Below are positions 10,333 to 38,510 of a stretch of 38,615 nt of DNA, one piece after another (position 1 is the first letter of the stretch; every line of letters begins with the position of its first letter). The stretch comes from a virus, in the IMG/VR virus record IMGVR_UViG_3300033145_001804, positions 1 through 38,615 of that record; one strand, given 5' to 3'. The notes below the pieces were generated by a model. That model was not told the origin of the DNA. It saw only the letters and a list, made by a program, of their open reading frames with translations, and made no database searches. Made by a program: the position numbers and the translations under genes.

Positions 10333-10591
10333 ACAAAAACAATGCTTTAAGGTGGTTTATGATTTTATACATGATGAGAGATCAAATGCTCAGAACTTAA
10401 TAGCTCTTATTGACATTAGATTTCCTGAAATAGACAGCGACATAAGCAGAGCTTTACATGAAAACGTCAAACCATATTTGGAGTTAAGGCGGTCTCTGGG
10501 CGCAACTACGATGGAACTGATGTATTTGCTTAAGAGCTTGGAAAAAGAAATTAATACTGGTGATACTAAAGAAAAAAGGGCGAATGGCTAA
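10322..10591 (+). CDS. Small helical phage protein, copy 2 of a paralogous pair
   Basis: This 89-residue protein is closely similar over its first 75 residues to the gene at 5936 (shared VYDFIHDER, NLIALIDIRFPE, VKPYLE), even at the DNA level. It lacks the CxxC tail of copy 1. The ribosome binding site (AAAGGAAAAA) comes from the repeat inside the upstream gene. Confidence 0.7.
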   Translation: MNDKQKQCFKVVYDFIHDERSNAQNLIALIDIRFPEIDSDISRALHENVKPYLELRRSLGATTMELMYLLKSLEKEINTGDTKEKRANG

Positions 10592-10775
10592 GGGTAAAAA
10601 AGACACTCCCATCCCCTGCCCGATATGCGGCAAGCGGATTTGCGATGGCAACGGCAAACCGGAGGGTGATTTCGGGATTGAATTAAAATGTCCGGGATCT
10701 TGCGGGTATGTCTGGCTGAGTGCGAAATATATACAAAAACATCTTGCATTGCAAAATAAGGATGGGGTATCCTGA
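10584..10775 (+). CDS. Com-like zinc-ribbon protein
   Basis: The 63 residues hold two knuckles, CPICGKRI and CPGSCGYVW, about 25 residues apart, like the Mu Com family. Mu Com binds mom mRNA and frees its translation start. ATG 10584 overlaps the previous stop. An earlier start at 10560 is possible but lies in the paralogue's tail. If it works like Com, its target could be the structured leader of the methylase gene at 37553. That link is inference. Confidence 0.65.
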   Translation: MAKGKKDTPIPCPICGKRICDGNGKPEGDFGIELKCPGSCGYVWLSAKYIQKHLALQNKDGVS

Positions 10776-36890: not shown

Positions 36891-37394
36891 ATGAAAAAAA
36901 TATTATGCTTTTTAATCTTATTTTTTCTATCTTATTCAGCAGCTTACGCAGATATGAGGGTGTGTATTAATAAAGCTACGGGGAAGTTAATTGAGTCGCA
37001 AGGCGGGGGTGATAAACTGCATTCACATCAAGTATTAAAAACAATAAACGAGGCTTATAATATTAAATATAAAATAGAAAAACCTAAGAAAACAATAGGA
37101 AAACTTATTGTAGAATTTGCGCCTGAAATTGAAGCAGCCACCGAGGAATATAGACAGGCAAATCTCAATACACTTACTCAAAATGCGATTGGGCGGGGTT
37201 ATAAGGTAGAAGATATTGAGGTTAAATATGTAAGCGATGAGGAATTTAAAACGCTTTTAGACTTTACAACTGCCCCGACACCAGAAGAGGTTTTAAAAGC
37301 CGAACAGGAAGCTATGATTAAAGCTATGATACGACAGATAGCTATTGAACGGCTACAAGGAGAAGGAAAATTATTCGGTTATGATATTGAATAG
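36891..37394 (+). CDS. Exported accessory protein after the fibre gene
   Basis: This 167-residue protein has an N-terminal signal peptide (ILCFLILFFLSYSAAYA, cleavage after AYA), a short Cys-containing stretch and a long charged helical part. AGGAGAA supports the start. It is AT-rich like the fibre tip. It could be a fibre assembly or periplasmic helper; no family is recognised. Confidence 0.65.
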   Translation: MKKILCFLILFFLSYSAAYADMRVCINKATGKLIESQGGGDKLHSHQVLKTINEAYNIKYKIEKPKKTIGKLIVEFAPEIEAATEEYRQANLNTLTQNAIGRGYKVEDIEVKYVSDEEFKTLLDFTTAPTPEEVLKAEQEAMIKAMIRQIAIERLQGEGKLFGYDIE

Positions 37395-37406
37395 GAGTTT
37401 GTTTTA

Positions 37407-37512
37407 GAGGCCGCTCCTGTGGAAGGCGTAACTTCCCAGGAGCGAAAGGTTGTTCACAGCACAACCAGACATCTGTAAACAGACGGCCTCCTGCTCGGAC
37501 CCGAGCAAGAGG
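37407..37512 (+). ncRNA. Structured leader RNA of the methylase gene
   Basis: P1 GAGGCCG (37407-37413) pairs with CGGCCTC (37484-37490) and closes three hairpins: CTCCTG-GGAAG with CTTCC-CAGGAG (loop GCGTAA), GGTTGT with ACAACC (7-base loop), and TCTG with CAGA (loop TAAA). A further hairpin GCTCG/CGAGC follows. The 3' strand of P1 holds GCCTCCT (37486-37492), perfectly complementary to AGGAGGC (37543-37549), the methylase ribosome binding site. CCTC can also pair with GAGG (37509-37512). Alternative folds could therefore switch translation. Confidence 0.7.
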
Positions 37513-37552
37513 GTTTATAACATAGATGCTGGCATTAACACAAGGAGGCGCT

Positions 37553-38311
37553 ATGAACAGCCCATTCGCTTATATCGGTGGTAAATCAAAACTATCTGAT
37601 ACAATTATTAAAATGATTCCCGAGCATCGTGCTTACTGCGAGGTTTTTGCCGGTGCAGCCTGGGTATTCTTTAGAAAAGAGCCCTCAAAGTATGAGGCCA
37701 TTAACGACCTTGATAGTGAGCTGATCGCCTTTTACAGAGTGCTTCAGCATCATTTAGAAGAGTTTCTAAAACAGTTTAAGTGGCTGCTGTCCTCGAGAGA
37801 ATGGTTTTTTGACTGGAAGCGACAGCAGGAAGCCGGCGGACTTACCGACATACAGCGAGCGGCAAGATATTATTACCTGCAGCGGCATACATTCGGCGGT
37901 CGTGTGAAAAATCGGACGTTCGGGACCGCTCCAATGAGCCGGCCACGAATCAATCTTCTCCGCATGGAGGAGGAACTTTCAGAGGTTTATCTCCGGTTGG
38001 CCACTGTGGTGATTGAGAATTTGTCCTGGCAGGAATTTATACAGCGCTACGATCGGGAAGAGACGTTCTTTTATCTTGATCCGCCATATTACAAATTTCC
38101 ATATTATCAACACAACCTGGAGCTTGATGATTATCAGAAAATGGCTGAGATATTATCCGGAATTAAAGCTAAGTTCATACTTAGCATTAACGATCACCGG
38201 GAGATCAGGTCGATATTCAACTCGTTTAATATGAAACCTGTCAGCCTGAAATATACTGTCGCTGTCAAGAAAAGCAAAACAGGAAAGGAGTTGTTGATCA
38301 GTAATTTTTAG
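37553..38311 (+). CDS. DNA adenine methylase (Dam, D12 class)
   Basis: The 252 residues hold FAYIGGKSKL (5-14, motif X), VFAGAAWVFF (31-40, SAM-binding motif I) and DPPYY (176-180, catalytic motif IV), so it should methylate adenine at N6 in a short target, likely GATC-like. AAGGAGG at 37542-37548 sets ATG 37553 rather than 37526. It occupies the far right end of the phage, the place of Mu mom, and probably protects phage DNA from restriction. Confidence 0.93.
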   Translation: MNSPFAYIGGKSKLSDTIIKMIPEHRAYCEVFAGAAWVFFRKEPSKYEAINDLDSELIAFYRVLQHHLEEFLKQFKWLLSSREWFFDWKRQQEAGGLTDIQRAARYYYLQRHTFGGRVKNRTFGTAPMSRPRINLLRMEEELSEVYLRLATVVIENLSWQEFIQRYDREETFFYLDPPYYKFPYYQHNLELDDYQKMAEILSGIKAKFILSINDHREIRSIFNSFNMKPVSLKYTVAVKKSKTGKELLISNF

Positions 38312-38454: not shown

Positions 38455-38510
38455 TTCTGAGTTTACGTGCAAATTATTCTGAGTTTACGTGCAAATTTAC
38501 AACCACTACA
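38455..38510 (+). other. Right prophage end with two MuA-like binding sites
   Basis: TTCTGAGTTTACGTGCAAAT occurs at 38455-38474 and again at 38477-38496, an exact 22-base period, as with tandem MuA sites at R1 and R2. The inward-reading complement matches the left-end site at 275-295. The terminus is probably a CA at 38500, 38504 or 38509. Confidence 0.7.

Follow-up and report, generated by a model that had tools for sequence, protein, structure and literature searches.

To our knowledge, mom of phage Mu is the main case in which the timing of a phage's modification of its own DNA is understood in detail. In translational riboswitches, competition between the closing helix and a downstream partner leads to masking of the start site. 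The start (TIS) of the Mu mom mRNA is concealed in the resting fold, which has to be opened (PMC6483171). The DNA analysed here (the window) is the whole 38,615-nucleotide stretch of virus record IMGVR_UViG_3300033145_001804, which encodes a Mu-type transposase (phrog_310, 9e-90). Close to the right end, an ORF that ends at 37394 is separated by a leader RNA of about 120 nt from a D12 methylase gene that starts at 37553.

This locus resembles Mu com-mom in carrying a phage DNA-modification gene at the right end, with a start that is predicted to be hidden by the resting mRNA fold; moreover, relatives of the window RNA precede com-mom in phages JD024 and PAN70. It differs from Mu in that the window has no com (PF10122, the Com family, had no match in the window genome) and only the RNA separates the upstream ORF from the methylase, in that the gene encodes a D12 Dam (PF02086) and not Mom, which has an acetyltransferase fold, and in that a junction RNA of 120 nt within the leader forms the putative switch. 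Neither of our covariance models R1 and R2 has a match in Mu. As in a translational riboswitch, competition between helix P1 and an element beyond hairpin P5 is predicted to be coupled to start masking, but the leader matches no Rfam riboswitch. The name of another Rfam family, RF02950 (D12-methyl), also refers to D12 methylases; however, its 64-position model had no match in the window at E <= 1, and its only matches in 11 other records were four weak ones that stayed under the cut-off and lay away from the leader. We consider the window best filed not as a com-mom system but as a new RNA family with a known kind of logic. This overlooked family heads the modification operons of the studied phages B3, KS9, KS5, VP882, phiHAP-1 and JD024, and likewise those of many uncultured phages; from the sequences compared, it looks like a common switch with which phages control the marking of their own DNA. 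A concrete candidate switch is now placed on phage modification genes, and its trigger becomes a direct question.

The leader and its predicted folds

The region 37407-37514 folds at -50.6 kcal/mol (z -4.9; 0 of 200 shuffles equally good), with helices P1, P2, P3 and P4 around a four-way junction and hairpin P5 standing separately (Table 1). The original prediction had placed a structured four-way-junction leader before a Dam-type gene at the right end, and both this fold and the PF02086 match bear it out. In the minimum-energy fold of the full leader, the junction is predicted to be open and the start codon to be blocked by the P3 arm: GGUUGUUCA (37448-37456) would pair with UGAACAGCC (37554-37562), and AGC (37458-37460) with GCU (37550-37552), a duplex of -16.9 kcal/mol with an ensemble probability of 1.00. 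CCTC (37487-37490) in the P1 3' strand has a predicted alternative partner beyond P5, GAGG at 37509-37512. The post-P5 box has the family consensus TATATCACA (alignment A3). No terminator-like site was found on the + strand within the leader.

Table 1. Coordinates of the leader elements and of the adjoining gene in the window.
Feature	Position	Strand	Basis
Leader RNA core (P1-P5 and conserved 3' element)	37404..37524	+	covariance model R1 match
P1 5' strand GAGGCC	37407..37412	+	pairs with 37485-37490; two-sided changes at all 6 pairs
P2 hairpin, 7 + 5 pairs around a bulged base	37413..37443	+	covariation in 10/12 pairs
Invariant GCGAA	37442..37446	+	invariant columns, alignment A3
Putative anti-start element (P3 5' strand and loop)	37447..37460	+	duplex energy, swap test, ensemble
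P3 3' strand ACAACC	37461..37466	+	local alternative partner for 37448-37453
P4 hairpin TCTG/CAGA	37472..37483	+	cells paired 96.7%; covariation in 3/4 pairs
P1 3' strand GGCCTC	37485..37490	+	pairs with P1 5' strand
P5 hairpin TGCTCG/CGAGCA	37492..37507	+	covariation in 5/6 pairs
Post-P5 element: GAGG mimicking P1 5' strand, then conserved TATAACA	37509..37524	+	swap test; alignment A3
Shine-Dalgarno AAGGAGG of the methylase gene	37542..37548	+	sequence
D12-class N6-adenine DNA methyltransferase (Dam-type), putative regulated gene	37553..38311	+	PF02086 7.4e-32; phrog_56 4e-82

A family of leaders before dam, com-dam and com-mom

With the methylase as query we collected 28 viral loci, later 80 genome and 80 viral loci; the close ones with named hosts came mainly from Desulfobacterota, some from spirochaetes. 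Most leaders of these loci share the same architecture. The comparative search for covariation that had been proposed with the original prediction gave a positive answer: in the 32 class A leaders, 27 of the 33 pairs show two-sided changes, with a covariation score of 0.437 against 0.173 for shuffled alignments and at most 0.137 for slid partners. Class B, a second class divergent in sequence, scored 0.390 (vs 0.138) and com-type leaders 0.397 (vs 0.129); the class A model matches five class B loci, with E down to 1.7e-9. A model match was found upstream of 74 of 91 methylase loci (R1 43 and R3 35, five of them shared, plus L150 by R2), about 60 of these 74 rows having gone into building the models. 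The match lies directly upstream in 73 of them, and in L150 com intervenes between the R2 match and the methylase. Over 291 Desulfobacterales genomes, the class A model gave 22 matches in 17 genomes, 21 of which precede dam (one dam, in L318, is broken); the remaining match, at 24.6 bits the weakest of the 22, looks false. Exact-pattern scans of viral contigs yielded no new members, mostly chance matches, or one new member among chance matches.

The window leader has the P1-P5 architecture and covariation, a model match directly before the first gene (113 bits against R1, of which it is itself one of the 32 model rows), and a P3 arm complementary to the first-gene start (-16.9 kcal/mol). No tested leader had a gathering-score match among the 4227 families of Rfam 15; the best sub-threshold match in the leader was a snoRNA family (14.7 bits, gathering 35), and loose thresholds brought up nothing credible. 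The RNA is not described in the literature that we searched, whose coverage leaves out most subscription journals. On these comparative grounds, the leader is a member of a large, widespread phage RNA family absent from Rfam 15. Two methylase genes (L024 and L120, upstream of 3001) are preceded by the 3' part of the leader only (GGGGGAGATACCAAG... and CATACCACA..., respectively), the junction being lost; these are natural deletions.

The RNA directly precedes a D12 dam in phages of Desulfobacterota and spirochaetes and in VP882, phiHAP-1, KS9 and others; it heads com-dam operons in B3, UMP151 and KS5, and com-mom operons in JD024 and PAN70. In Pseudomonas phage UMP151, the class A model match (E 8.6e-7) lies between the preceding gene and a com ORF that is unannotated and overlaps dam. 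A search with a Com alignment gave 80 viral loci, with the RNA in 26 non-redundant leaders, where com is followed by dam in 24 and by an uncharacterised gene of about 120 aa in two. The com-type model R2 matches VP882, phiHAP-1, KS9, KS5, Lodos, AM106, Phi06_2974B and S1, and further Bise, TJ1, MuM16-1, Leptolyngbya JY19 and several class A/B leaders; Mu, PseuP_222, POA1180, Bacillus ZY1 and pAEv1818 had no R2 match, nor had the more distant Acinetobacter and Firmicutes dam genes. The idea that the RNA substitutes for com, the two never occurring together, was rejected, the B3-type order being RNA-com-dam. Nor is the RNA likely to serve Dam autoregulation in general, given its place before com-mom in JD024 and PAN70.

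Unannotated C4 zinc-ribbon com ORFs are present in UMP151 (L320 716-904), JD024 (L326 1643-1858), PAN70 (L327 1639-1854) and Bise (L322 672-872). Shewanella phage MuM16-1 has the RNA directly before dam, and a C4 zinc-ribbon nucleic-acid-binding gene 3' of dam (L324 1816-1992). The order in Komp_PAO1_1 is RNA-com-(ATPase/acetyltransferase-like gene), the last encoding a protein that resembles, by eye only, an ATPase fused to an acetyltransferase (L328 1894-3015). In L365, L366 and L368, downstream of 1601, the RNA and com are followed by a protein of about 120 aa (MALTPEQIEVTKALVSSIW...) that is neither Dam nor Mom; this gene is possibly a further Com-controlled modification or anti-restriction gene.

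Predicted pairing of the P3 arm with the first-gene start

We used a swap test, in which the duplex energy of an element pair within its own leader is set against the energies obtained when the partners are exchanged between leaders; shared ancestry inflates such tests, and control region pairs reached z -2 to about -3. The expected helices scored z -10 (P1), -14.5 (P2) and -8.8 (P4). The P3 arm and the start region paired at -12.8 kcal/mol in their own leaders and at -9.9 when swapped (z -7.1; 0/20000), and still at z -5.2 when the codons after the AUG were left out. In com leaders the arm tracked the com start (z -4.4). In 18 held-out leaders, arm and start paired at -16.9 vs -11.8 kcal/mol (z -7.0), and the 12 named phages gave z -5.0. 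Because the pairing tracks dam, com and held-out starts, the arm appears to follow whichever gene comes first, which is what a translation-initiation switch predicts. Local P3 pairing gave a z of about 0 with short arms and -3.4 with aligned blocks, and pairing of the P1 3' strand with the post-P5 element z -7.0.

Individual leaders illustrate the range. L034 has a 12 bp anti-start pairing over the AUG, the coding start ATGCATGGCC of L311 faces the arm GGCTATGCA, and L124 pairs arm and start as GAGACATT/AATGTCTC; the fit is poor in L036, L058 and L317. Class B leaders pair only weakly with the start region; in its place they seem to use a local hairpin upstream of the SD. In the predicted ensembles, the ext-P5 pairing exceeds 0.5 in 89% and the anti-start pairing in 79% of leaders. 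The open fold is the prevailing one, and about 8 kcal/mol must be paid to force P1. Forced P1 raises the predicted accessibility of the start region only from 0.44 to 0.50 (p 0.03), and the window itself gains none (0.47 vs 0.44); P1 and the anti-start helix might coexist as a pseudoknot, which the programs used cannot score.

A putative switch and its alternatives

Comparison of the leaders shows a structured RNA at a constant position ahead of the first gene in DNA-modification operons, with covarying P1, P2, P4, P5, P3-arm/start and P1-3'/post-P5 pairings. On this basis, the leader is probably an RNA switch that acts in cis on the initiation of phage methylase translation. In the resting fold, the P3 arm would pair with the start codon and its flanks and thereby mask the start, and the P1 3' strand would pair beyond P5, leaving the junction open; closure of the four-way junction by P1 would draw the P3 arm into P3 and free the start. 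We infer the masking from the sequences, and likewise the mutual exclusion of the two folds in the cell, their effect on translation and the sign of the switch. With the open fold prevailing and P1 about 8 kcal/mol more costly, the ON state would need either something external that stabilises the junction or folding as the RNA is transcribed. A host factor, a metabolite or co-transcriptional folding is a likelier trigger than a phage protein, because the RNA is carried by unrelated phages, and neither gene, com or dam, occurs in every one of them. A bolder and more tentative extension is that one riboswitch-like RNA family in unrelated temperate phages may sense a host cue and time the modification operon (dam, com-dam or com-mom), replacing or preceding control by Com.

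The original prediction proposed instead a mom-like switch in which P1 blocks the SD through its CCTCCT, the start being opened by a Com-like zinc ribbon encoded at 10584. GCCTCCT (37486-37492) is exactly complementary over 7 bp to AGGAGGC (37543-37549), an ORF for a C4 zinc ribbon is present (10584-10775), and the RNA family does head com operons in other phages. However, a run of at least six such pairs occurs in 1 of 38 homologous leaders, the window alone, and is absent from the other 37, an outcome that the original prediction had itself named as counting against it, with a swap test at z -0.9; nor is the zinc ribbon the Pfam Com (no PF10122 match at E <= 10), its homologues being found in 2 of 31 other related records, or 3 of 32 with the window. 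We regard an anti-SD relieved by Com as highly improbable. What survives of the mom-like switch is a conserved leader with competing folds, in a family that heads com-mom and com-dam operons. The alternative folds exist, the full leader opening its junction, but the predicted block falls on the start codon and comes from the P3 arm, not on the SD from CCTCCT; with this change of blocker, the proposed logic of a closed junction freeing the start and an open one blocking it finds support in the compared sequences.

The same pairings may be read as one static object, in which the junction and the P3-arm/start helix form a single pseudoknotted OFF structure that a trigger melts, so that the closed junction would mean OFF. 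The strong conservation of P1 fits this, as does the contrast between P3, which hardly covaries (z 0.4; third pair broken in 15 of 32 leaders), and the arm/start helix, which does. Yet a static structure would have no need of the conserved alternative pairing of the P1 3' strand beyond P5 (z -7.0), and we think this arrangement unlikely. Still less probable is that the RNA is mainly a separate product (a small, processed or packaging RNA) or a transcription attenuator, its adjacency to dam or com being secondary: a stable, strong structure in an intergenic gap and a conserved TATATCACA box with no assigned role would suit such an RNA, but it directly precedes the first gene of the modification operon, its arm tracks the start of that gene, and the + strand of the leader is free of terminator-like sites.

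Two observations concern the surroundings of the leaders. In L014, Rfam RT-17 RNA has a match at 281-367 (42.8 bits), some 2.5 kb before the leader. The window carries the direct repeat TTTACGTGCAAATT at 38462-38475 and 38484-38497, 22 bp apart and close to the phage right end; the repeat has no copy within 2 mismatches at the left end, and its two copies are possible transposase-binding sites.
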